Positions 43,418 through 59,191 of a stretch of 64,000 nucleotides of DNA are shown here, in pieces. Position 1 is the stretch's first letter. Every line of letters starts with the position of its first letter. The position numbers were made by a program, and so were the translations under genes. Location of the stretch: the NCBI GenBank assembly GCA_031276875.1, contig JAISMG010000038.1:1-64000 (forward strand). The letters are read 5' to 3'. The notes under the pieces were generated by a model, which was given only the letters and a program-made list of their open reading frames with translations, was not told where the DNA came from and searched no databases. The DNA comes from Candidatus Peribacteria bacterium. Lineage in GTDB: Bacteria; Patescibacteriota; Gracilibacteria; Absconditabacterales; Absconditicoccaceae.

Positions 43418-44158
43418 ATGCTCCCAAATGCTCCTATGCACCCCATCACCCTCAAATTCCTCGAAGCAGTAAAGCTCAATAATAACGTCAAACGAATGCA
43501 CCTCCACCGTGACCTCTATCTCCAAGAAAAAGAAAGATTTTTCACGTTTGTAGACAGCCTTTTGGAACAGTTGAAAAAGCTGGACTCCAACTTGGAAGAC
43601 ATCACCACCAAAGACTGTATCTTCAGATTTAATAAAGATATCCGCTTTTCCAAAGATAAATCCCCTTACAAAACCCATTTTGGAGCATTTATTTCGTCCG
43701 GAGGCAGAAAATCACCACTCCCGTGATACTATCTGCATATTCAACCCGGAAATCAGAGTGGCATTTCGTGAGGTTCGCGATGTCCTAGCATTCCTCAGAG
43801 AGAAGCAATCATCCTCCATATTTGGAATAATCGAACTAAACGACAGCGTATCATAACAAATCCCCCATTTAATAAACAATTTGGTACCTTAGTCGATAAA
43901 CAAGCAGAAGTAAGCTTGGAAAGAAGATTGAAAAGCCATAAAACTCAACAACTATTGGAACAGCTTGGAAAAACCAAAGCCAAGCAGATACTCAACAATA
44001 AAGAAGCATTAGAACTCCTCCTGTATCCTCGTTTCTGCGTGCGACATCCAGTGAGTGATAAAGAAGTCCTTCAAACTGATTTTGCACAAAATGTGATGAA
44101 AGGATTTCAGCTTTTGCAACCGTTTAATGAATTGATACTGGAGGGGATGATAGGCTAA
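43418..44158 (+). CDS. DUF2461-family protein
   Basis: DCIFRFNKDIRFSKDKSPYKTHFGAFISSGGRKSPLP[G]YYLHIQPGNQSG; rejoined across two TGA. Confidence 0.75.
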
Positions 44159-45099
44159 TTGATTTCTCCTTGTAGTGCTTTTACAATCATTTCTTTATGG
44201 TCAGGGAAAGCAAATGGAATTGTATCTATATCCTGTGGAGCCACTTTGACAATAGTTTTGGCATCATCGCCTGCTTGTAAATCTCCGGAAAGAATACTAC
44301 ACAAAAATGCGTGAGCAATGTTATGAGCACGGGGATCTCTGTCTGGATTATCCCAATATCCCAAATATTTTTCTATTTGAACCTCTGCACCTATCTCCTC
44401 TTGTGCTTCTCTTTTTGCAGCGTCTTCAATTCTTTCACCAACATCAATAAATCCTCCCGGTAAAGCAATACCCTGAGGGTAATTTTTCCTTTCTATAAGC
44501 ACCAATTTCCCTGCTTTATCAAAAAGTACAATATCCGCAGTAATTCACGGAACTTTTCTTTCGTGTTGAAAAATTTCTTTTAATCTCTGGGAAGCGTGAA
44601 TGGTATCTAAAAAGCTGACCGTATCTTCGGAAAGTACTTGTACCAATCATTGATGATGATTACGAGCCAACCATTCTCTAATCGTAGAACCTTTTACCAT
44701 TTCTCTGACCTGCAAGGGGATAATCTCTTTTCCTGTTCATTTGAAAATTTCTTGCACTCGTACATTCCCTGAAATAACATATTGAAACTCAGGAAGTTCT
44801 TTGAGGATATAATCTCTTCGACGCTGATTGTCTCCAATATCAGGCACCGGGAAAACTTCCACTTGCAAACTCTGCAAAAGATGGTGTGATGAGATTTCTA
44901 TCATTTGCTTTCTTTCCTCATAGGTAAAGGGATTTTCTGCAGTAAATTCTTTATTGGAAGATCCCACTCAAATCAATACATTCGTAATTCCTTGTTCAAT
45001 TGCTTGTTGTAATCCATCTAGATGTCCTTTATGCAATCACGGTTGAGCACGCGTAATAAAAAGTCAGGTTTTCCCTTCTGGTTTCATTGTTCATTTCAT
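44155..45099 (-). CDS. nadM: Bifunctional NMN adenylyltransferase / Nudix hydrolase
   Basis: LFITRAQP[G]LHKGHLDGL nucleotidyltransferase motif, GSSNKEFTAENPFTYEERKQMI; C-terminal Nudix GGFIDVGERIEDAAKREAQEEIGA; five or more TGA-Gly. Confidence 0.85.
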
Positions 45100-45130: not shown

Positions 45131-46711
45131 TTATCCTACCATTAATAATTTTTCATCAGGAACTTTTAATTTTTCATTAGGCACGTTCGGTAATTCTGTT
45201 TTACAGGTTCACATATTAAGATTTGATAATAATTTTGTTCTCACTTCTTGGTGCATTTGCTGAGTAATCGGACTCTCCACTGTCGGAAATGCTGTCAAGG
45301 GAAGTGTTATTAAAAGTCTATTTCTCGCTTCATCAATCGCAGCAATATCATTATCATCATAGAAAAGTTTCCCATTTTCATATACTTTGTGGAGCAATCT
45401 TTCTCCTCTGACTTCTTCATCTTCTTGGACAAGATATCTTACTCCATCTCTAATTTCAATATTGAGGATTCCGGGAACAGGTTCTTTATCAATATCATTA
45501 GAAAGTTTTCCAGTAGGTCAATATTCGGTAGCTGTTAATTTGTAGGCTGCTGAAAGCGAATCTCTCGTCTTATCTTTGGAAACAAGTAATCCTCCAATAC
45601 CATATTTTAGTAATTCAGTGGAAAAACCAGCTTCTTTTACCTGATTTTCTAAAGCTTGGATGTCCTCAATACTAGATAAACCTTCTGAAACCGTAATCGT
45701 ATCTCTGGTCGTATCAAGCATTCAACGTTCTTTTTGCTTTTGGAGAGCTTCCAACAAAAGCGTAGGAATATCGCCACTATCAAGTCTTAGTGTAATATTT
45801 TTATTTGTATTTCTATACTGCTCTTTCAAATCAAGAACTTTATCAATCCCACTATGCGTATCTACGAAATCTGTCAACAACGTTATTTTGTCCGTTTTTT
45901 TGACTGCATCCTGCATCGCTTCATCTTCACTCGGATATGAAGCATAAAATCTATGAGCAGTAGTCCCTCAACAAAGGAGTTGTGGATATACCAAAGCAGC
46001 TGCATCATTAGAAGTATATTTGAGTCACGCTCCTACAATAAGAGAGCTTACCGCATCTAAATGAGCTTTTTCATTGATGGCTGCTCTTTTACCTTGTTCA
46101 CACACTTTCGTAGCAAAGGTTGCATTTCCATCTGGTAATATTTCTTCTAATCTATGAGCATCTGTAGCTACTTTACTTTTGAAAAAAGGTCTAATCCAAT
46201 CTGGTTCAAAAATCGCAGCTAATTCAGCAGGTCAAGTCACTACCATTGCTGGTTCTTTGGGCTTTAATGCTGTTCCATCTGCTACCGCATAGATGGTTAA
46301 AGGTAAATAGCCTCCCCCATCTACTACGCCTTGTCGCATATCAGTGTTAAAATAACCAGTTGCTCCTTTTTTGGTCTGGTCTGCATAAAAATCTTTTGCA
46401 AAATCCAATTCTTGTTGAGTAATGGGATACGACAACATTTTCTTTAATGCTGACCTAATCCCATCTATAATGATATATATATCAGGAGATTTTCTCATTG
46501 ATAAGGTAAAGGTTTCTTGTTGTTTTGCTCTTTCTCCTTTAATGTATGTCATTGGTCTATTGTAGGTATCTGTTTGAATGATTTTATTTCTTTGGGAAAT
46601 ATCTTGCCTTACTGACTCATTGGTAATAGCTTGATATTCCTCATACGTAAGAGTAGGGAACATTTGCATTTTCCTTTCATAGGCTTGGACATCAAAGGTT
46701 GGTGTATTCAT
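45131..46711 (-). CDS. pncB: Nicotinate phosphoribosyltransferase-like
   Basis: GTTAHRFYASYPSEDEA, ITLRLDSGDIPTLL, ITVSEGLSSIEDI, YGIGGLLVS; rejoined over TGA. Confidence 0.82.
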
Positions 46712-46753: not shown

Positions 46754-47515
46754 TTATTGAGTAAATTTTTTTGAAAGCAGAGTAGCAAGTTCAGATAAAG
46801 TAATAATATCTATATGTCTTCTATCAAACTCTTTCAGTATAGCTTGGGTAGTTTGTAGAGCTACTCCTCTTATTGCCTCTTGAATAAGATAAGGTTCATA
46901 GCCTAAATCTTTTGCATCAAGTGCAGTTTGTCCCACACAGTAATCAATAGCTACTCCACCAATCAGTAGAATTTTTTTCTTTTGTTTCCTTAAAGTCTCG
47001 TCCAACACGGTTCTATCAAATCCACTATAGGCTTCTCTATCAGCTTCTTGCCCTTTTAAAATTTTAACATTAAAGTCTGATTCCTGCAAAGGTGGCATCA
47101 ACTGTATCCCTTCAGTTCCTACAAGGGAATGATTTGGTCGAAGTACTTGTTGTTGAACTTCTGCCAGAAAACGTTGTACTTCTCTTACATCAAAGGTTGC
47201 TTTATCAGAAATTCCATTCTGATATGATGTCCATTGTTTCACTTCGTCATAGGTAAGTACATCATAAGGGTGTTTATTTTTGTAGCTCGTAGCTAAAGAA
47301 AGGTGTCCCCTTGGATGTTCTTCCAATACATTGATAATCATAATTCCATACGGTTTACAAAGATTGATAAGCTGTTTGGTAGCTTGAGCTACTTGTTCTC
47401 CTTCTGGAACATAAAGCTCATTGAGACGTTTATCTTCAAAAGTTTGAGTATTATCTACACTCACTACTGCAATATCCTGTGGAGTATTGCAAATTTCCAA
47501 TATTAGATTTTTCAT
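46754..47515 (-). CDS. pncA: Nicotinamidase/isochorismatase-family hydrolase
   Basis: VVSVDNTQTFED...KILLIGGVAIDYCVGQTALDAKDLGYEPYLIQEAIRGV. Confidence 0.75.
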   Translation of the reverse strand: MKNLILEICNTPQDIAVVSVDNTQTFEDKRLNELYVPEGEQVAQATKQLINLCKPYGIMIINVLEEHPRGHLSLATSYKNKHPYDVLTYDEVKQWTSYQNGISDKATFDVREVQRFLAEVQQQVLRPNHSLVGTEGIQLMPPLQESDFNVKILKGQEADREAYSGFDRTVLDETLRKQKKKILLIGGVAIDYCVGQTALDAKDLGYEPYLIQEAIRGVALQTTQAILKEFDRRHIDIITLSELATLLSKKFTQ

Positions 47516-47648: not shown

Positions 47649-47677
47649 CGAAATAATTTCTTCTCTCATCTTTAGTA

Positions 47678-47694
47678 ATTGTATTATACACAAT
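47678..47694. promoter_or_regulatory. Palindromic operator/-10 (distal, pncA)
   Basis: ATTGTATTATACACAAT. Confidence 0.65.
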
Positions 47695-47742
47695 TACTTT
47701 TCAATTTCAAGACTTTTTTCTGGAAAAAATTAAAAATAAACA

Positions 47743-47809: not shown

Positions 47810-48586
47810 TTATCCACCAAACCCACCGAGGCTGGTTTGGCTAAACAGAGCAACACTCTGTGAAGCTCTCACTGCTGACTGACTAAAAACCTGAAAGGCC
47901 TTTCTAATATCAGATGGATTTGAAGCTGCTGTTAATACCCACTGATCAGGAATTCCCATTTCAGCAAATATTTTACGGAAATCACAATCTCCATTATCAA
48001 ATCCCATAGCTGAAATGATGTGTTCTTCTGTCCGAAGCATATCAGACACAATTTTCTTTACATCATTGGCTGTTGAAGTTCGAGAATGACAATCTTCACC
48101 ATCAGTCAAAATCAGCGTAATTGTACGCACCTGAATACCATTATTTTTGAAGTCCTGAGACTTCGAAATAACAGTCGCAAGTAATTTTGCAGTTTCATCA
48201 AATAGTGGAGTACCACCATTTGGGTCATAATTCTGAGAAGTCATCTCAGGTACTAAACTCAACGGCGTGTAAGGATACAGCACCGTACCATTTAAGTAGC
48301 GATTCACTACTTCAATATTGTCCTGCTGTTTACTTTCTTTGAGAGACTTAATCAAAAGATTATGACCATCACGAACCGCCTGAGCATTCCCAGCAAATCG
48401 AATTGAACCTGAATCATCAACCAACACATTGAGTAAGATGACTTCACTAGATCGTATCGAATCCACTGGAATCCCTAATCCCTCTTGGATTGTTTGTCCC
48501 AAATCGGGAATTTTTGTCAATGCATCCAATGAACCTTGGGAAATATCTCCCTCATTGAAAGCATTCTTTAATAAATCTATTGACAT
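47810..48586 (-). CDS. VWA-domain protein (TerY-like)
   Basis: LNVLVDDSGSIRFAGNAQ MIDAS, LILTDGEDCHSRTS; upstream AGGAGG. Confidence 0.75.
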   Translation of the reverse strand: MSIDLLKNAFNEGDISQGSLDALTKIPDLGQTIQEGLGIPVDSIRSSEVILLNVLVDDSGSIRFAGNAQAVRDGHNLLIKSLKESKQQDNIEVVNRYLNGTVLYPYTPLSLVPEMTSQNYDPNGGTPLFDETAKLLATVISKSQDFKNNGIQVRTITLILTDGEDCHSRTSTANDVKKIVSDMLRTEEHIISAMGFDNGDCDFRKIFAEMGIPDQWVLTAASNPSDIRKAFQVFSQSAVRASQSVALFSQTSLGGFGG

Positions 48587-48614
48587 AATTTATCCTCCTT
48601 TATTAAAATTTTTA

Positions 48615-49640
48615 TTACATTAATTTACCTGTATCCACTCCCGGCCATTGGTCGATGGGAGTGATTGACTTAACTAAATGCATTCCTGCACTTTCAAAGC
48701 TCTTAAAAGCCTGATTACCTTGTTGGGTAAAATCAATAACGTTCGGTATGATTACCGGAGACGTGCAATCTTCCAAAAGATAGACTTTGGATGCTAACGC
48801 CGGATCTTTCGCCTGAATTTCTGTAAGCAAATCTTCAATAGAAAACGCTACACAATGCGACTTGGCTTGTCCACCAATTATCACAATGTCATAATTTAAA
48901 AGCGTCTCTATAAAACGAGCATTCTTTTGGGCGATAGATGATCCATCCGCAGTATTTAACACCTCGGGACTCAGTACCGAGTAATTTTCCGTCAGCGGAT
49001 TTCCACCCTTTATTTCAATACCTGGCTGCGAATTGCGAGCAATGGTATGAAAGAAGATTGCTTCTTCAAATAGTGGAATTAAAGCGTGTCCAATTCCACC
49101 AAGCATTGCGTGATAGTCCCAAATAATGAGACTATACTTTCCGTTTTTTTCAAGCGTTTCCGTGTAATGGATAACGTGTCTTTTTAAAGAAGTATAGCTC
49201 ACATTTAGAGCACCAGCCACCGCCGGATTAACAGCATATTTTCCACTCTTCAAGTCTGCAGATGAAATCACTGTATTTGGTTTTACCAAATCACCATTTT
49301 CATCAATAAAAAATAAAGAATGAAAAATCTGCATTGACGTATGTGTATCCATCGTCGGGAAAATCTTGGTGATATATCCCAAATTACGATAGATAAACTC
49401 TGAAAAACGTTTGGTATCTTCCGGTGCATTTTGAACATAAAGTTCATGTCCCGGAATACCAAATGTTATCTGCATATCGATAGGCATCACAGCAATTTTG
49501 TATTTGTCTGTAGCCGCATTCGTTATGCCTTCAGCTTTTTTAAAAGCTGTTGCTTGGTTTGCTAACCCTGCATAGTCTACTCTGTAAACTAGGCCAGCCT
49601 TACTAGGGTCATAATGACCCGGAATTTTAAATTCTTTCAT
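48615..49640 (-). CDS. Isochorismatase/nicotinamidase-family cysteine hydrolase
   Basis: IAVMPIDMQITFGIPGHEL...DIVIIGGQAKSHCVAFSIEDLL...VYLLEDCTSPV. Confidence 0.75.
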   Translation of the reverse strand: MKEFKIPGHYDPSKAGLVYRVDYAGLANQATAFKKAEGITNAATDKYKIAVMPIDMQITFGIPGHELYVQNAPEDTKRFSEFIYRNLGYITKIFPTMDTHTSMQIFHSLFFIDENGDLVKPNTVISSADLKSGKYAVNPAVAGALNVSYTSLKRHVIHYTETLEKNGKYSLIIWDYHAMLGGIGHALIPLFEEAIFFHTIARNSQPGIEIKGGNPLTENYSVLSPEVLNTADGSSIAQKNARFIETLLNYDIVIIGGQAKSHCVAFSIEDLLTEIQAKDPALASKVYLLEDCTSPVIIPNVIDFTQQGNQAFKSFESAGMHLVKSITPIDQWPGVDTGKLM

Positions 49641-49668
49641 TTTGAATTTGTTTTAAAAAATTTAACAT

Positions 49669-51531
49669 TTACTTTATTGAAATAAGATTTATTTTTTGTT
49701 TACTCACTACATAGATACCTTGTGGGGATACTATGAGCTGAGAATACTGATTAACATAAGATGCTGTATCACTAAAAACTTTCGTTTCCAAATTTCCACT
49801 AGCATCTATGCTAAGACGGATAACACCATCATTACTTGGACAGAAAAGAAATCCACCTACTGCAGATTTTCCTTTAATCTGATCAAGCCAAGAAGTATCA
49901 CCCTGTTCATTAGTTATATCAAGCAAAACTTTCCCCTGTGCATTAAGAATAATGCAATGATTGATATATTTTGCCTGATATTTAGTAGAGAGCAAAAGCC
50001 AAGCTCTTGTCTCACTAAGATAACATTTTGCATCAATAATTTCTCCCTTGATGAAAGGAAGTTGCAAGCTATCATTGATAACTCTACGTCCTTTTTCAAA
50101 GATAAACCCTTGCAAAATGTGCCCTGCTTTGTACATCCCAAAACCGAAACTGGCTCCTGACCAAATCAAGGTTTGATCAGCGATACCTTCCCCAACTTTT
50201 GTGGGGGTGTATTCTAACCCCAAAGGATTAGCGTGCTGAATTACCCCATTTACAACCCAGAAAAGGTCATTTTCTGTAGTGGAAAAGATGGGAACATTTC
50301 CGACACAATCCACAGAAAGTTTGGACATCGTGCCATTTTTGCAATATTGCACCGTAGTGGCTTTGGCAAAAACCGTAGCCGACCCTTGCAACGCAAAATG
50401 CAACTCTCTATCCAATTCTCCTGTACAAATTATTTCAGACGTTTCTCTTTTGTATTCACCGTTTTCGTGGTACAAATAACATAATTTTCCATTGTGGAAG
50501 GCGACACTCATAATGACGCCAACTGTTTTGAATACTTCGTGTACTTGTATATTTCCACTACTTACCGCGATAGGAATAATTATTCCCACACTACATATCG
50601 GACAATGCATTCTTGCGTGCTGTATCCCACATTTGGGACAAGTTTGCCAATGCATTGAAGATAAGAGTTGTAGAGGAAATTCTCCACGTCTATCGTGAAT
50701 AAATACTTCTTCAAAATGCTGCATCAGTTTCTCCGGCAAGACTTTATAGTCATAAGCGTGCTTAGGATAAATGACTTCCGGATGAAATACCGTAATGCGA
50801 TTTTTAGGTCGCAATTGCTGTTTCACCCTTTTTGAAGTGTCATTAGGTTTATAAACACCTCCATACGGATCCACGAAGAGCAAGGTTTTGAATAATAAAG
50901 CATTGAATGCATACCAATCCCCGAAAGGATTATGCGGCTTAGTCATTGTCCAAATCCCATTTTGAAGACCACACAAAAGCGGGTCAACAAATTTTTCTGT
51001 ATACATCGTGGACAGAAACCCTTCAAATTGCCAACTGTCAGTATCTATCCAGTATGCTTCATTTCCTTTCACGAGAATATTCATATCATTAAAATCTCCA
51101 ATCACAACTCCGTGCTGATGAACAGCCTTTAAAGTCTGATGAAGATGAATAAAAATATCTCTAATCTCATTATTGGAAATATTTTTGCTTTCCCGAAACT
51201 GTAAGTCTCCGTAGGTTAACAGAGTTTCCGCTTTGATAAATGACATTACATAGCCAACAATTTCTCCTTGACTATCTGTCAACAACGCTTTGGGTCCAAT
51301 CACATTAGCTGGTAAACCAGAGGGAAAAGCTGAAAGCTTTTGTCTGATTAATGATAATCTGATTTTTGCCGCCTGTTGCTCCGAAGAGGAACCCGCATAA
51401 TACGGGTCATTGGGCTGACGATAGAGTTTTGCAACTAACCCGCCACCAATGGCATACACAACTGCCTCTTGACCTGCTCCAATTTCTTGGAGCGAAGTGA
51501 GAGGCTTTCCATTACAAAACACTTGTTTCAT
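49669..51531 (-). CDS. Serine/threonine kinase-like protein with Zn-ribbon and C-terminal repeat region (TerY-P kinase-like)
   Basis: IGAGQEAVVYAIGGGLVAKLY, HQHGVVIGDFNDMNILV, YWIDTDSWQ; CPKCGIQHARMHCPIC zinc ribbon. Confidence 0.75.
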   Translation of the reverse strand: MKQVFCNGKPLTSLQEIGAGQEAVVYAIGGGLVAKLYRQPNDPYYAGSSSEQQAAKIRLSLIRQKLSAFPSGLPANVIGPKALLTDSQGEIVGYVMSFIKAETLLTYGDLQFRESKNISNNEIRDIFIHLHQTLKAVHQHGVVIGDFNDMNILVKGNEAYWIDTDSWQFEGFLSTMYTEKFVDPLLCGLQNGIWTMTKPHNPFGDWYAFNALLFKTLLFVDPYGGVYKPNDTSKRVKQQLRPKNRITVFHPEVIYPKHAYDYKVLPEKLMQHFEEVFIHDRRGEFPLQLLSSMHWQTCPKCGIQHARMHCPICSVGIIIPIAVSSGNIQVHEVFKTVGVIMSVAFHNGKLCYLYHENGEYKRETSEIICTGELDRELHFALQGSATVFAKATTVQYCKNGTMSKLSVDCVGNVPIFSTTENDLFWVVNGVIQHANPLGLEYTPTKVGEGIADQTLIWSGASFGFGMYKAGHILQGFIFEKGRRVINDSLQLPFIKGEIIDAKCYLSETRAWLLLSTKYQAKYINHCIILNAQGKVLLDITNEQGDTSWLDQIKGKSAVGGFLFCPSNDGVIRLSIDASGNLETKVFSDTASYVNQYSQLIVSPQGIYVVSKQKINLISIK

Positions 51532-52370
51532 ACTTTAACCTCCTTTAGTGTAATTAATGTCGTATCATCAGGAAGTAATCCAGGGAAACGTTGGATATTT
51601 CTTCCCTCCCAATCAATACGCCTTTTTTCTGTATTGATCACAGTAAGTTTATTTCGCATCCAAATAGGATTAGTAAAATAAATATCCTCTGACCAAAACT
51701 GATCAATTGATCCAATCAATGTTTCTTGAGCTGGCAAAGGTCTCTCTGCCAAATTCACTAAATCACCAACTCCATCCGTCCCTATCATCAGAGAATGTAC
51801 CTCTGAAGTCGGGATAATCAGATTGCGTTGAATCTGTAACAACGTGGCATCACTATCCGTAATCTCGCTACCGGTCAAACCATACACCAGATACGGGGGT
51901 TTATTGTCCTCAAAGGGACCAATTTCTTGGAGTCCGCCATTGATGGCAAAAAACCCATCTCCACAGGAAAAGATACACGTAGTATCTTCCCGTACCACTA
52001 CACCAACTAAGGTTGCTAGAAAATAATCCCGCAGGACACTCCACCAATCTTCCCCCATTGTCTGGGCAATTAAGCGAATTCTAGCTAACACATCGTGGCG
52101 AATTTCTTCCCACCATTGTGCACAATGGAATAATTTTTCGCTTTCTATTTTTTTCCCTCGTTTAAGATATTCTGCTACACAATGAGCAAAAATCGTCGAA
52201 AGAATCCTGCTTCCCACTTCAGAATGCTTTGTAGATCCACAACCGTCTGAAACGATAGCAACCACAAACTCCTCCGTAAAAAGCCAGTGAAAGAAATCTT
52301 GATTATTTATTCCACGTTTCACGTGAGTAGTGCCAGCAACTGAAGCACCGGCAATTTCAAATTTTTTCAT
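51528..52370 (-). CDS. PP2C-like protein phosphatase
   Basis: KRGINNQDFFHWLF...VVAIVSDGCGSTKHSEVGSRI...FSCGDGFFAING...LMIGTDGVGDL...LPDDTTLITL; TGA (ATGA overlap) at the end. Confidence 0.8.
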   Translation of the reverse strand: MKKFEIAGASVAGTTHVKRGINNQDFFHWLFTEEFVVAIVSDGCGSTKHSEVGSRILSTIFAHCVAEYLKRGKKIESEKLFHCAQWWEEIRHDVLARIRLIAQTMGEDWWSVLRDYFLATLVGVVVREDTTCIFSCGDGFFAINGGLQEIGPFEDNKPPYLVYGLTGSEITDSDATLLQIQRNLIIPTSEVHSLMIGTDGVGDLVNLAERPLPAQETLIGSIDQFWSEDIYFTNPIWMRNKLTVINTEKRRIDWEGRNIQRFPGLLPDDTTLITLKEVKV

Positions 52371-52534
52371 TATCTCCATATTTTATTTATATTAATTTTA
52401 CCAATTTATAATTGACTTTTATGTTAAAGATCTCATCCCAGATTTTCATCTGACGGGTTTTATTATAACGTAGTAGTAGTAGTACAAAGTCAAGTCAATT
52501 TTGACTTTTTTTTATTTTTTATCACTACTAAAAT

Positions 52535-52551
52535 ATTGTACTATATACAAT
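52535..52551. promoter_or_regulatory. Palindromic operator (proximal, PP2C operon)
   Basis: ATTGTACTATATACAAT. Confidence 0.6.
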
Positions 52552-52656
52552 AAGTAGTGAGTAAAAAAAATTCTCTTCATTTATGATATAACTGTTAAAG
52601 ACCATCTTATACGGAATTTTCCGCAATGTTCTCGTCTAAGAAAGAAACCTTTACTT

Positions 52657-52700
52657 GATGAACGGCGTGTTCTCTGTCCGTCGGAATCACCTCCATCCAT
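52657..52700 (-). ncRNA. Conserved leader/small RNA element, copy B
   Basis: ATGGATGGAGGTGATTCCGACGGACAGAGAACACGCCGTTCATC (minus strand). Confidence 0.5.
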
Positions 52701-52727
52701 TCACATATTCTTTCTCTTTCTAGAACA

Positions 52728-52744
52728 ATTGTATTATACACAAT
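52728..52744. promoter_or_regulatory. Palindromic operator/-10 (distal, PP2C operon)
   Basis: ATTGTATTATACACAAT; minus strand TTGAAA-N16-TATAAT. Confidence 0.7.
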
Positions 52745-52899
52745 AAGTAGTTAATTTCAAGAGAAAATGTATTTTTTACATTTAGTAGGTAAGAATTGTA
52801 AAATAATACAAAAAAGGTATAAGAAATTTTCCTATACCTTTCTTCATTGTGTTAGAAAAAATTAGAATTTTAAGTTGTAATATCTATATTAGCAATCCC

Positions 52900-53466
52900 T
52901 TATTTTTTTGTTCAAGGAAAAGGTGATTTTATTCTATAGGATAGAGAATTGGTGCCTTGTCTATAATCAACAACACCGTTATATACTTCTCCCTCTTCTC
53001 CTCAAAGATATTTTTTATTCCGCCATTCACGTATTACGTTACCATATGACCACGTATCATATAGTACCTCTATAGTTATCCATGTATAATGTTCTAAATC
53101 TTTATCTGGTGGAATGATTTCTTTACAAGTTTCATTAAATATACATATAACATCTTCTTTAGTGAATTTTTCCATCTCATTTAATATTTTTTCTGCAATA
53201 CGTGCAATTTTTATAGAGAAATCTATACATTCAGTTCTTCATACAAATTTCTTATTTATCTTTGTAGCTGCATCTTTTGATACCAAAGATATGACAGGAG
53301 CACTTTCTAATAAATCAGAAACACGTTTACGATAGTGTTCCATGATTTTTGCATTTCTGGCATCTCTTTCACGTAAGTGTTTTTCTATATCTGCTATTTG
53401 CTCCGCTGCTCAACCAGAGTGTTTTTCTTGTATAGAATTTTGGTGAGTAAATATTTTTTTTCACAT
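52900..53466 (-). CDS. Hypothetical protein (188 aa, absent from the ORF track)
   Basis: MGKKIFTHQNSIQEKHSGGAAEQIADIEKHLRERDARN...KYLGGEEGEVYNGVVDYRQGTNSLSYRIKSPFPGTKK; five TGA-Gly. Confidence 0.7.
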
Positions 53467-53570
53467 AATGAATTAAGATAAAAGATAAAATTTATTATAA
53501 TAGTATAACGATATAACAATAAAAAGCAACTTTTAGATGACTTTTTTCATTTTTTTATCACTACTAAAAT

Positions 53571-53587
53571 ATTGCACAATATACAAT
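53571..53587. promoter_or_regulatory. Palindromic operator-like site (proximal, 53466 gene)
   Basis: ATTGCACAATATACAAT (degenerate). Confidence 0.5.
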
Positions 53588-53685
53588 GAGTAAAAAAATT
53601 TCTCTTCATTTATGATATAGCTGTTAAAGACCATCTTATACGGAATTCTCCGCAATGTTCTCGTCTGAGAAAGAAACTTTTACTT

Positions 53686-53729
53686 GATGAACGGCGTGTT
53701 CTCAGTCCGTCGGAATCACCTCCATCCAT
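53686..53729 (-). ncRNA. Conserved leader/small RNA element, copy C
   Basis: ATGGATGGAGGTGATTCCGACGGACTGAGAACACGCCGTTCATC (minus strand). Confidence 0.5.
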
Positions 53730-53756
53730 TCACATATTCTTTCTCTTTCTGGAACA

Positions 53757-53773
53757 ATTGTATTATACACAAT
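53757..53773. promoter_or_regulatory. Palindromic operator/-10 (distal, 53466 gene)
   Basis: ATTGTATTATACACAAT. Confidence 0.7.
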
Positions 53774-53890
53774 AAGTTGTTAATTTCAAGAGAAAATGTA
53801 TTTTTTACATTTAGTAGGTAAGAAGTAAGAAACAATACAAAAAAGGTATAAGAAATTTTCCTATACCCTTTTTCATTACGTTAAAGAAAA

Positions 53891-54477: not shown

Positions 54478-56178
54478 TTATAATAAAGGTTTTTCTGCGA
54501 TTAAGAAAACATTGGTAGGAGGATACTCTAATGCAACAAGGTTTTCTTTTCCATTCTCCTCTACATTTTCTTCGAAAATCTCTACTTTTCCTTTTCGTAC
54601 ATTATCTATCAGTCGAGGATTAGTATAAGATGTACTATCGGAATGTAAAGTAAATCCTGCTTTTTCTAGCATTTCTTTCCAATCTGAAAATGCAAAATCA
54701 CAAAATCTTTCGTGCATTTCAGATTCTCGATTACCAGTATATTCTTTTTTGGACATAAATTCACAAATAGATGCATACGATGCTTTGATATATTGTTTTC
54801 CAGCTTTTTCTACTTTTTCATAGGAAATTTGATCGTTTTCTTCTTTTCTAAAGTCTTGAGCAAAACGAAGAAATCTCTCATAGGTAGAAAGACTTTCCAA
54901 ATGATTTTTCAATGCTGTTTTATACATCTCATAATTATTCTTTTTTAAGTCCTCACTAGGTGCAGGATGAGGTTCCTTTCCATCAGTCTGAGAAAATGCC
55001 GCCAAAACCATTTTATTGCCTTCTTCAGGTCATACAACATCCACATTAATTCGTCTACCTCAAGGTTTCAACTGAGTAAAAAGCAGATGAATCATTTTTT
55101 CTAATGCTTGTTTGGACTGATAAGAATACACTTCGTGCGTAAGAGAAAAACTGGTAAAAATATCTATAAAATTTTCTCTAAAAATCTGATTATCTACTAC
55201 ATTTTTTTGCAAAAAGAAGACACTATCATTTTTGAAATACTGACCACTTTCCTTTCTCTTGATACATTCGTCATACAATATTCTTGCTACTTCAATCCCA
55301 TAAAAATCAGCATTCTGTTGTAATGTTGGATTTTTCGTCATTTGCTCAATGAGAGAACCTGAACAACATCCAATATCAACAATTTTACCGGGATAAAGAT
55401 ACTTTTTAATCTGTGCATATTTTCTTTCTGCTCCATCATCAAAAGATCTGAGATATTCCCTATAATCTCTCGTAGAAGTTAAATCTCCATCTCCTCCCAA
55501 AAGTCCATCTTCAAAAAGATTACGAATATAAGGAACTAATTGGTAGGTTTCATAGAGTTTCCTAGTACTTTTACTAACTTTATCTAATACGTTATCATCC
55601 ACATTTCGATAAGAACCATTTTTTGCTAATGTAACTAAATATTCTACCCATTCCCAAGGTCTTTCTGCTAAATATTCTGGTTGTTCTAAGGTTCACGGTT
55701 TTAGTTCTGCAGGTAAAATTTGGTATCACAGACGTTGAAACTGCTTAATCACATTGGGAGTTGAAGTCATCACCACCATATTTTCTGGTGTAAAATTAAA
55801 ACGTCCCTGACTTTCCACATAAATTTTTTTGATCATATACTCTGCAAAATGATCTGAGACAGGAATATCATCAATAGGATATTGAAACGTGCTCACAGGT
55901 AATGTTTGTCCAAAACGATCTAAAAGCATTGTCCTTTTAGACAAATCCAAAGGATTTCTTTTGGTTCCGCTATGATTTGCTGAAGTAATAGCAAAAATCA
56001 CATTAGCAGCTTTTTTTCCTTGTTGGAAATTAAGAGGAGTATTTTGTACGGATAAACTCTGACATAACTCTTTAGCTACAACTTTTTCAATATACTGTTC
56101 CCAATAAGTAGTAGTCAGATGATGTCTCCCCGGAACAAGAATACTAACTTCTGGCATATATATATCTTTTTCTGACAT
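54478..56178 (-). CDS. Fusion: NMNAT-like nucleotidyltransferase domain + SAM-dependent methyltransferase
   Basis: MSEKDIYMPEVSILVPGRHHLTTTYWEQYI...FAITSANHSGTKRNPLDLSKRTMLLDRF; then IVDIGCCSGSLIEQM...LFTQLKP[G]GRRINVDVV; one frame across four TGA. Confidence 0.65.
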
Positions 56179-56365
56179 AGTATAAAAAAAGAAGATAAAA
56201 TATTTATATATAATGAGTATAATTATTTCATTTATTATGTCAAGTAAAAGTGCAAACAATAACACTATTTATACGATAGTTCAAACAATAATAGCTAAGA
56301 AGCTCTATTTCACGGTCGTTATACTATATTTTTTTCTAAATGCTTCTACAACATTCAATAAATCT

Positions 56366-58315
56366 TTACCAAGAAATTTTTTCTACTTCTTCCAATCGCA
56401 CATTCGCCTGTGCATCACTCGGCATTCTCCAATCTCCTCTAGGAGAAAGACTTACACTTCCTACTTTGGGACCATCTGGAAGACAGCTTCTTTTAAACTG
56501 TTGAGCGAAAAATCTCTTTAAAAACACTTTCAATCGTTTTTTGATTTCTTCATTAGAATAGTCATCCTGAAAGGTAAGCATTGCTATATCAAAAATCTTT
56601 CTAGGACTTGCACCATATCTCATAAAATGATACAGAAAGAAATCGTGCAACTCATAAGGTCCCACAGTATCCTCAGTTTTTTGTTGAAGATTTCCTTGAA
56701 GGTCTGGAGGTAACAACTCAGGACTTACGGGCGTATCCAAAATATCTTTCAAAGTCTGCTGTAAATCAGCATTTTTTGTCTGTTGAGCAACATAATCTAC
56801 CAGATAACGCACAAGCGTTTTGGGAACAGAAGTATTCACTGCATACATACTCATATGGTCGCCATTATAAGTACACCGCCCAAGTGCTAATTCTGAAAGG
56901 TCTCCTGTCCCAATCACTAATCCTCCTTTTTTATTGGCAATATCCATCAAAATCTGTGTTCTCTCTCTAGCTTGGGTATTTTCATAGGTAATATCGTGTA
57001 CGTCAGGATTATGTCCAATGTCTTTAAAATGCTGAAGAGAAGCATCTTTCACAGAAATCTCTTGAAAACTAGCTCCATACTGCTGAACTAATTGTAGAGC
57101 ATTTTGATAGGTTCTTCCCGTTGTCCCAAATCAGGGCATCGTAATCGCAATACACTGTTTTGGACTAATCCCCAATTTTTCATAGGCTTTCATAATAACT
57201 AGAAATGCTAACGTAGAATCTAATCCTCCAGAAATGCCAATAACTGTAGTTTGTATTCACGTATGTTGTAATCTTTTTGCTAATCAGCTTGCTTGAATAT
57301 TGAGGATTTCTTCACATACTTGAGCTCTTTTTGAAAGAGTACTAGGAACAAAAGGAGTTTTTTCATATGTTCTTAGGATGTCCGTTGGAGTATCTGCTAA
57401 TTGCACAGGAATTTTTCTGTAAGGAGTTTTCAGCTTTTTGGCTCCGTGCATATAACTCGTAGTTGTACGCCTATCGTGAAGCAATTTCTGAGTATCAACA
57501 TCAGCCACAGTAAGCTGACTTTCTGGAGTAAGTCTTTCTCATTGCTGAAGCAATGTTCCATTTTCAGCGATGAAACTTGCACCACCAAACATCAAATCCG
57601 TTGAAGACTCTCCTACTCCTGCAGAAGCATAGACATATCCAGAAATATGTTGAGCAGAAAGTGCTCTCACCAATTGCTCTCTATATGCTGCTTTTCCTAC
57701 AACCTCATTACTTGCAGAAAGATTGAAAGTAAGTAAAGAACCTGCTAAAGAATGTTCAGCACTGGGAGGAATAGGAACCCAAGCATCTTCACAAAGTTCT
57801 ACTCCAAAAGCACACTGAACATTATGCACATCGTGAAAAATAATATTCGTACCAAAAGGAACTGTTTCTTTGCCTAATGATACTTGTGTAGAAAGAGCAT
57901 CATCAGCTGATGCAAACTGTCTTTCTTCATAAAATTCCCCATATCAGGGCAAATAGGTTTTGGGAATTACTCCTAGTACTTTTCCCTGTTGTGCTACTAC
58001 ACCAACATTAAAAAGCTGATTATCAAGTGGAAGAGGCATTCCAAGAATAAAAATAATATCTCCTTGAATGGAAGCAAGAATAGTTTCAAGTCCTCTTTTT
58101 GCTTGGGATAATAAGATGTCTTGTGTAAAAAGGTCTCCACACGTATATCCAGTAATGGAAAGTTCTGGGAACGTAAGGATTTGAACTCCCTGCTCCTGAG
58201 CCTTAAGGATTTGAGCAATGATTTCTTGGGTATTAAAGCTTACATCAGCTACTTTAAGCTGGGGAACTGCTGCCGCTACCCTCAGGAAACCGTGTTCTGA
58301 TATTAAAGTATGCAT
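56366..58315 (-). CDS. nadE: Glutamine-dependent NAD+ synthetase
   Basis: N-terminal nitrilase ILTFPELSITGYTCGDL, GVELCEDAWVP; C-terminal VIGISGGLDSTLAFLV, LVIGTGDLSELALGRCTYNGDHMSMYAVN. Confidence 0.93.
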
Positions 58316-58364
58316 AGAAAAGAAGATAAGAAATAAAAGTCTGATTTTTCTTTTGGTTTAGTAA

Positions 58365-58381
58365 TTGTATTATAAACAATT
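58365..58381. promoter_or_regulatory. Palindromic operator upstream of nadE
   Basis: ATTGTATTATAAACAAT; upstream ATGTATAAATTACAT. Confidence 0.65.
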
Positions 58382-58531
58382 AGATAGTAATTTCAAGAGA
58401 AAATGTATAAATTACATTTACTGGTTTATACCTGTTATCTTACAGAAATACCTCTCAAACATATCTTCCCTTGAAAATTATGATAAAAACCATATCTTTT
58501 GTATTAGCTTTTTAGTCCTTATGGAATACTA

Positions 58532-59191
58532 ATGATTACACAGGATATCTTTGTTACTGTAGATAATGTCATCTTTACTATTATCAATGATAAACTTCAA
58601 ATCCTTTTTATCAAAAGGTGAATAGAACCTTACAAAGAAATGCGAGCTCTACCGTGAGGATTTGTTTTGGAGGAAGAAACACTAGAAGAAGCTGCATATA
58701 GAGAATTGGAAGAAGAAACGAGTGTAAAAAATGTGTATCTGGAACAGTTGTATTCTTTTTCTGATATCAAGAGAGACCCTAGAGGAAGAAATATTTCTGT
58801 CGCTTATATTGCATTGGTTGCCAGAGAACATATCTTTGTAAAAGGAGGTTCTGATGCTAGTGAAGCAAAATTTATCCCTGTAGATAAACTTCCCAAATTA
58901 GCATTTGACCACAGAAAAATTGTGGATTATGCGATAAAAAGATTGAAACGAAAACTAGAATATACCAACATTGCTCAATACATTCTCCCCACAAAGTTTA
59001 CCTTTACCCAGCTTCAAAACGTCTACGAAGTTGTTTTAAACCAGAAACTAGATGTCAGAAATTTTAGGAAAAAGATTGATAAACTCTGAATTATCAAAGC
59101 AACAGGAGAAAAAGAAATGGGGAACCAATACAGACCTGCGAAATTATTTCAGTTTGTAAATAAGGATTTGGAAATTGTAGAGATATTGTAG
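58532..59191 (+). CDS. nrtR: NrtR-like Nudix-related transcriptional regulator
   Basis: MITQDIFVTVDNVIFTIINDKLQILFIKR[G]IEPYKEMRALP[G]GFVLEEETLEEAAYRELEEETSV; C-terminal wHTH FTFTQLQNVYEVVLNQKLDVRNFRKKI. Confidence 0.87.

Follow-up and report, generated by a model that had tools for sequence, protein, structure and literature searches.

The closest described relatives of the protein studied here are the archaeal NMN adenylyltransferases (NMNATs) of the NadM type (PRK01153/TIGR01527; MJ0541 and MTH150), with which it shares the fold, the order of elements, the SAxxSxTxxNP block, the GR at the end of strand 1 and a context of NAD genes. Unlike NadM, the protein lacks the T/HxGH and SGTxxR signatures and is joined to a methyltransferase, and in several genomes it coexists with a separate intact NMNAT. 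The bifunctional NMNAT/Nudix proteins (PRK05379) likewise combine an NMNAT domain with a second catalytic domain in the same gene cluster, but in the fusion this second domain is a methyltransferase, and the catalytic signature is missing from the NMNAT domain. The methyltransferase has the fold and SAM motifs of class I enzymes such as PRK06922, UbiE/Coq5 and phosphoethanolamine N-methyltransferase, although it falls far below the NCBIfam cut-offs and has a C-terminal extension of its own (ExxExFC, TN). NNMT (PF01234) resembles it in being SAM-dependent and in its vitamin B3 context, but differs in architecture, with no family match. Literature searches found neither a published fusion of an NMNAT with a methyltransferase nor a comparable pathway to methylated pyridine nucleotides, and a survey of NAD metabolism in viruses describes NadM-Nudix and NadR and mentions no methyltransferase (PMC9503650).

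The window, the whole stretch of 64,000 nucleotides analyzed, lies on a 72.5-kb contig of a 1.23-Mb genome that is 68% complete, and reads in code 25 (NCBI). The fusion gene is on its minus strand, which the preliminary description had not given for this reading frame, and encodes 566 amino acids from an ATG at 56178 to a TAA ending at 54478:

54478-56178, minus strand: pseudo-NMNAT/SAM methyltransferase fusion gene (566 aa, code 25), supported by homologs and by glycine enrichment in TGA columns

The four in-frame TGA codons (residues 151, 162, 373 and 383) were read as glycine; under table 11 the frame is split into ORFs at 54478-55011, 55060-55602 and 55726-56265. Nine standard-code genomes carry the fusion as a single unbroken ORF (516-536 aa), and their homologs have glycine at residue 151 in nine of nine, at residue 373 in eight and at residue 383 in seven. 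Across 29 TGA columns, taken from the window protein and a recoded relative from genome G032 (25 TGA codons), glycine fills 113 of 243 cells (46%) in the nine standard-code homologs, compared with a background of 5.6%. The proposal that four glycine-coding TGAs make one 566-residue protein is borne out by these data, and the homologs are fused single ORFs rather than separate genes.

The search for the same fusion in other genomes gave ten full-length homologs, all in Patescibacteria: the nine standard-code genomes and G032, a Candidatus Absconditabacterales bin of the same family as the window genome. Among these ultra-small symbiotic bacteria the fusion is rare and patchy. It was found in 2 of the 50 genomes from the family of the window, in the same two carriers among 357 genomes of its class, in 5 of 381 genomes sampled across the phylum, in 8 of 295 genomes of one distant family (f43) and in 1 of 16 genomes of a third class. 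Identity to the window protein is 29-41% across the homologs, and the nearer relative is that of G395, from another class (41%), rather than that of G032, from its own family (29-33%). The window and G395 also share the gene order VWA, isochorismatase-like, kinase-like, PP2C, and are paired in the 11-protein tree (86/84). This suggests that the fusion spread horizontally between classes; since the branches are long, the tree is not decisive and the transfer stays a suggestion. Scans of GTDB contigs with one or two query sequences recovered G032 as the only full-length relative, and their sensitivity was low, as homologs found later had been missed. Neither scans of viral contigs nor tblastn against phages and plasmids found a full-length relative. 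The match in G078 was set aside because the sequence, when read, looked unrelated, as were the short matches in G241, G265, G301 and G310, which are confined to the methyltransferase region.

The N-terminal half of the protein has the following elements:

55609-56178, minus strand: N-terminal domain of predicted NMNAT fold, residues 1-190 (archaeal NadM type), from profile and structure matches
56098-56133, minus strand: PGRHHLTTTYWE, residues 16-27, at the place of GRFQPFHxGH; PGRH invariant, T/S kept, Gly and second His lost
55951-55986, minus strand: TSANHSGTKRNP, residues 65-76, corresponding to SAQxSHTxxNP of archaeal NMNATs; nearly invariant
55654-55662, minus strand: RPW, residues 173-175, at the place of SGTxxR/ISSTxxR; Trp175 invariant, Arg lost

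Scanning the domain as a single sequence gave weak NMNAT matches only, while PRK01153 was matched by the N-terminal domain in 11 of 11 proteins. In a PDB profile search the best match was MJ0541 (E 1.6e-7) and the significant matches were archaeal NMNATs only; hhalign against the canonical NMNATs of the carrier genomes gave 96.2% with E 2.2e-9. The AlphaFold2 model of the domain (pLDDT 85.2, pTM 0.84) matched 1f9a in Foldseek with an E of 4.5e-6, reached a TMt of 0.68-0.75 to the archaeal NMNATs MJ0541 and MTH150, and had archaeal NMNATs as its only matches with E<1e-3. By AlphaFold2 and Foldseek the domain thus has the HIGH-superfamily Rossmann fold of the NMNAT type, and, judged from its profiles and model, it is descended from an archaeal-type NMN adenylyltransferase. 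The nucleotidyltransferase-like domain with a degenerate HxGH of the preliminary description is therefore recovered, with the fold present and the motif lost.

The T/HxGH ATP motif is present in 0 of 11 proteins, and T/S-x-x-[Q/W/E/L] stands in its place. It aligns with T-x-[F/W/Y/A]-[Q/W/E], and in G032 with S-x-P-L; its first position stays T or S, and the Gly and the second His are replaced in all 11. The C-terminal SGTxxR/ISSTxxR motif is also found in 0 of 11 proteins; in the alignment the place of SGTxxR is taken by a conserved segment, (R)PWxxV, in which Trp175 is invariant and the Arg is lost. The block on the mononucleotide side, TSAxHxxTxxNP, is nearly invariant: TSA(N/D)HxxTxxNP and PGRH are kept, with Arg74 in 10 of 11, and the 21 invariant positions of the domain across these diverged proteins are clustered in PGRH and TSAxHxxTxxNP. 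From the sequence alignment, and in a numbering of our own, we take the equivalents of Arg11 (11 of 11) and Arg47 (10 of 11) of the Methanothermobacter thermautotrophicus enzyme to be kept. In this alignment-based mapping the equivalents of its Arg136, His16 and His19 are presumably lost. We infer that the domain is a non-adenylylating NMNAT domain, which has most likely kept the ability to bind a pyridine mononucleotide.

The C-terminal half agrees with the class I methyltransferase that had been proposed from VDIGCCSGSL:

54481-55464, minus strand: predicted class I SAM methyltransferase and C-terminal extension, residues 239-566, from Pfam, Foldseek and invariant motifs
55357-55377, minus strand: SAM-binding motif I, DIGCCSG, residues 268-274; invariant

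Pfam Methyltransf_11 (PF08241) was matched with 23.1 bits against a cut-off of 21.2, and the top Foldseek matches were class I methyltransferases. Motif I, an acidic residue at strand 2 (E296), THExxSY, INxDVVxP and ExxExFC are invariant in 11 of 11 proteins; with RDYxxY and a TN near the C-terminus, the last three make up the conserved blocks of the methyltransferase's own. The nearest named model, PRK06922, for which we know of no citable function, was matched by all 11 far under its cut-off, and the domain resembles many small-molecule methyltransferases and none specifically. Its motifs and model indicate that it is an intact SAM-dependent methyltransferase. In the full-length model (pTM 0.59) the relative orientation of the two domains is uncertain. 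A 740-aa protein of the TGA-recoded genome G097 (L009:1385-3607, minus strand), adjoining pncB and pncA, has a related methyltransferase with the C-terminal extension and some 400 other residues that match nothing in Pfam, but lacks an NMNAT domain; this domain is thus not always required.

The preliminary description had placed the gene beside nadE and linked it to pyridine nucleotide metabolism. The link recurs at every homologous locus, and the window gene does adjoin nadE. Placement beside nadE is nevertheless too narrow a description: the gene belongs to an NAD-salvage cluster of 14 kb, and homologs are retained in some genomes that have lost nadE. On the minus strand of the window the order is nadE, the fusion, two small genes, PP2C, kinase-like, isochorismatase-like, VWA-like, pncA, pncB and NMNAT-Nudix, and an NrtR-type gene diverges from nadE:

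58532-59191, plus strand: NrtR/NtrR-type Nudix-related repressor of NAD genes (NF050029, E 4e-46, under the curated cut-off)
56366-58315, minus strand: nadE, glutamine-dependent NAD synthetase, directly upstream of the fusion (NCBIfam PRK02628, E 1e-264)
47810-52379, minus strand: VWA-like, isochorismatase-like, kinase-like and PP2C genes; G395 has all four in this order, and G522 has three
46754-47515, minus strand: nicotinamidase, pncA (NCBIfam PRK11609, E 6e-26)
45131-46711, minus strand: nicotinate phosphoribosyltransferase, pncB (NCBIfam, E 3e-34)
44155-45099, minus strand: a further NMNAT in which HKGH is intact, joined to a Nudix domain and resembling PRK05379 members (PRK01153, E 1e-26; NUDIX, E 3e-18)

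In G032 the order is pncA, pncB, nadE, NAD kinase, a CysQ-like phosphatase, a Nudix-like gene (by inspection) and the fusion. The f43 loci have varying sets of nrtR, pncA, pncB, nadE, a histidine phosphatase, an ADP-ribosylglycohydrolase and an APH-Nudix protein. NAD genes surround 12 of 12 loci (the 11 fusion loci and that of the methyltransferase-only G097 relative), and an nrtR-like gene is near the fusion in eight.

Several neighbors were noted in their own right. VWA-like, kinase-like (with zinc-ribbon-like cysteines) and PP2C genes form a triad in the NAD-salvage clusters of the window (47810-52379, minus strand), L026 (1755-6114) and L027 (5267-10007), accompanied in the window and G395 by a divergent isochorismatase-like gene and preceded by the shared putative operators described below. 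The triad presumably resembles the TerY-P type phosphorylation triads; we know of no earlier link of such a triad to NAD. The 188-aa protein encoded at 52900-53466 (minus strand) weakly matches the Pfam family of the type I Thoeris inhibitor Tad4 (E 4e-4; 21.1 bits, cut-off 25) and has a putative NrtR operator of its own in front; padloc gave no match for it and no defense-family match for the fusion. Proteins that combine APH-type kinase-like and Nudix domains are present in the NAD clusters at L029:4182-5624 (minus strand), L028:13901-15415 (plus) and L041:17048-18529 (plus), with opposite domain orders in G605 and G590; Pfam confirms that of L029 only. ADP-ribosylglycohydrolases are encoded in or near fusion-bearing clusters at L010:18143-19144, L041:10709-11803 (both minus strand, PF03747) and L042:1917-2957 (minus strand, by similarity).

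Most of the 11 fusion loci have NrtR-like operator palindromes. In G605, G590 and G1042 the interval between pncA and the fusion contains a palindrome of 21 bp, TTAGTGT-N7-ACACTAA, which as a rule occurs twice at a spacing of about 40 bp; other loci have it in front of nadE, PP2C or pncA/pncB. Within the clusters, 1,655 bp of intergenic sequence contain 22 sites, a count that is not independent because the motif was derived from those regions. Its genome-wide rarity is independent: the 788-kb genome of G605 has 4 sites in total, two of them at the fusion promoter. The core in the window is different, with the same architecture:

58359-58428, no strand: double palindrome between nadE and nrtR, putative operators 58362-58382 and 58400-58420 (palindrome scan)
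53751-53822, no strand: similar double palindrome upstream of the gene at 52900-53466
52722-52793, no strand: similar double palindrome upstream of the PP2C gene
47676-47696, no strand: perfect palindrome TAATTGTATTATACACAATTA in front of pncA

TAATTGT-N7-ACAATTA thus occurs at 47676, 52726, 53755 and 58362, with a second copy 38 bp on at three of the four sites, and stands upstream of pncA, PP2C and the nadE that adjoins the fusion. With two mismatches allowed, the window pattern was found 5 times against 0.92 expected; with three, 12 times against 9.9, near chance. About 250 bases including the double operator look duplicated upstream of two genes (52520-52800 and about 53570-53830). The putative operators (7-N7-7) share their N7 spacer with the mycobacterial NrtR site, an 8-N7-8 palindrome, GTTTTCGA-N7-TCGAAAAC (PMC6800001), and may be NrtR sites. 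No such palindrome is present directly upstream of the window fusion, which would therefore need to be co-read with nadE across a gap of 187 bp.

Contrary to our expectation, the fusion is not tied to complete NAD synthesis. The G605 genome, in six contigs and 99% complete, has intact genes for pncA, pncB and the fusion. The full genome, searched with PF01467, a T/HxGH motif scan and a local NMNAT profile, showed no detectable NMNAT: the fusion itself gave a weak PF01467 match, the profile gave nothing significant, and no ORF had the nucleotidyltransferase T/HxGH in convincing surroundings. NadE is also absent from it: the sole PF02540 match is weak, of a kind seen in almost every genome examined, and is probably another PP-loop enzyme. 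G522 (99% complete) has no NadE. In G590 (99% complete) PF01467 matched nothing, and a frameshift, possibly an assembly error, interrupts nadE. The window genome and G032 each have a separate intact HxGH NMNAT, and G1102 and G395 have separate HxGH candidates.

Computation shows the family, fold, motif loss, conservation and NAD context of the fusion; its substrate, chemistry and regulation are proposals. The reading we favor, though tentatively, is that of a two-domain enzyme of NAD salvage, in which the former NMNAT pocket holds nicotinate mononucleotide (NaMN) and the methyltransferase methylates NaMN or a derived compound. Nicotinamidase and nicotinate phosphoribosyltransferase would supply NaMN, the pocket would hold it (NMN or a dinucleotide being less likely), and a methyl group would move from SAM onto NaMN or a compound made from it. 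NaMN is proposed as the ligand and methyl acceptor mainly because pncA and pncB of G605 end at NaMN, with no known route on. In NMN and NaMN the ring nitrogen is already ribosylated and N-methylation is impossible; the acceptor site would be the carboxylate, a ribose hydroxyl or a ring carbon. Several points count against this reading: the methyltransferase has no specific counterpart among small-molecule enzymes, the G097 relative does without the NMNAT domain, and the domain orientation in the full-length model is uncertain. With two phosphate-binding arginines kept, slow adenylylation is also conceivable, since E. coli NadD H19A retains 0.62% activity and the archaeal enzyme is described as working mainly through substrate positioning (PMC1249556). 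A narrower form of this proposal, which we regard as possible but doubtful, is a side branch, in which NaMN from pncA and pncB is methylated instead of adenylylated to an undescribed methylated pyridine nucleotide that may serve as cofactor, signal or protected storage form.

It is unlikely that the pseudo-NMNAT is instead a sensor of NaMN, NAD or ADP-ribose, with the methyltransferase modifying protein or RNA in NAD stress signaling together with the kinase, PP2C and VWA proteins. Pseudoenzymes often serve as sensors, the clusters of the window, G395 and G522 include all three of these genes (that of G1076 includes only PP2C), operator sites stand in front of PP2C, and cap and tRNA methyltransferases are among the weak matches. 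However, the triad is absent from most f43 fusion loci within the stretch read, the nearest classified methyltransferases are mostly small-molecule types, and no RNA- or protein-binding domain was recognized.

Methylation of the free base, disposing of excess vitamin B3 as trigonelline or 1-methylnicotinamide, would function without NMNAT or NadE and would suit a gene that is always in an NAD-salvage locus, frequently divergent from nicotinamidase. We consider it quite improbable: the NNMT family PF01234 is not among the Pfam matches of the fusion up to E 10, and the retained NMNAT domain with its conserved block, the pocket that holds NMN or NaMN, suits a mononucleotide better. The nicotinamide methylation of the preliminary description is accordingly one rival among several, and not the favored one.

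We give little credence to a bifunctional enzyme in which the N-terminal domain, its active site rewritten, is still a (nicotinate) mononucleotide adenylyltransferase acting before methylation. G590 and G605 are without another recognizable NMNAT, the first T/HxGH position stays T/S, and the two phosphate-binding arginines stay. Against this, the Gly and second His of T/HxGH and the arginine of SGTxxR are gone in 11 of 11 proteins, the window genome, G032, G1102 and G395 have their separate HxGH candidates, and NaAD would be a dead end in G605 and G522, where NadE is absent.

An artefact, in which read-through of the four TGA codons of the window frame joins separate or decayed genes, has virtually no chance of being right, as it is already refuted by the nine unbroken standard-code ORFs and the glycine-rich TGA columns of the homologs.

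The standard-code homologs make the NaMN methylation that we favor directly testable in E. coli without recoding. To our knowledge, no NAD salvage route includes a methyltransferase, and a repurposed NMNAT domain that hands a mononucleotide to one would extend a very well-studied pathway by a new reaction. The phylum is known for life on other cells and for cofactor scavenging; the side branch, if true, would be one that survives in epibiont-type genomes without NadE and, in G605, without a recognizable NMNAT.
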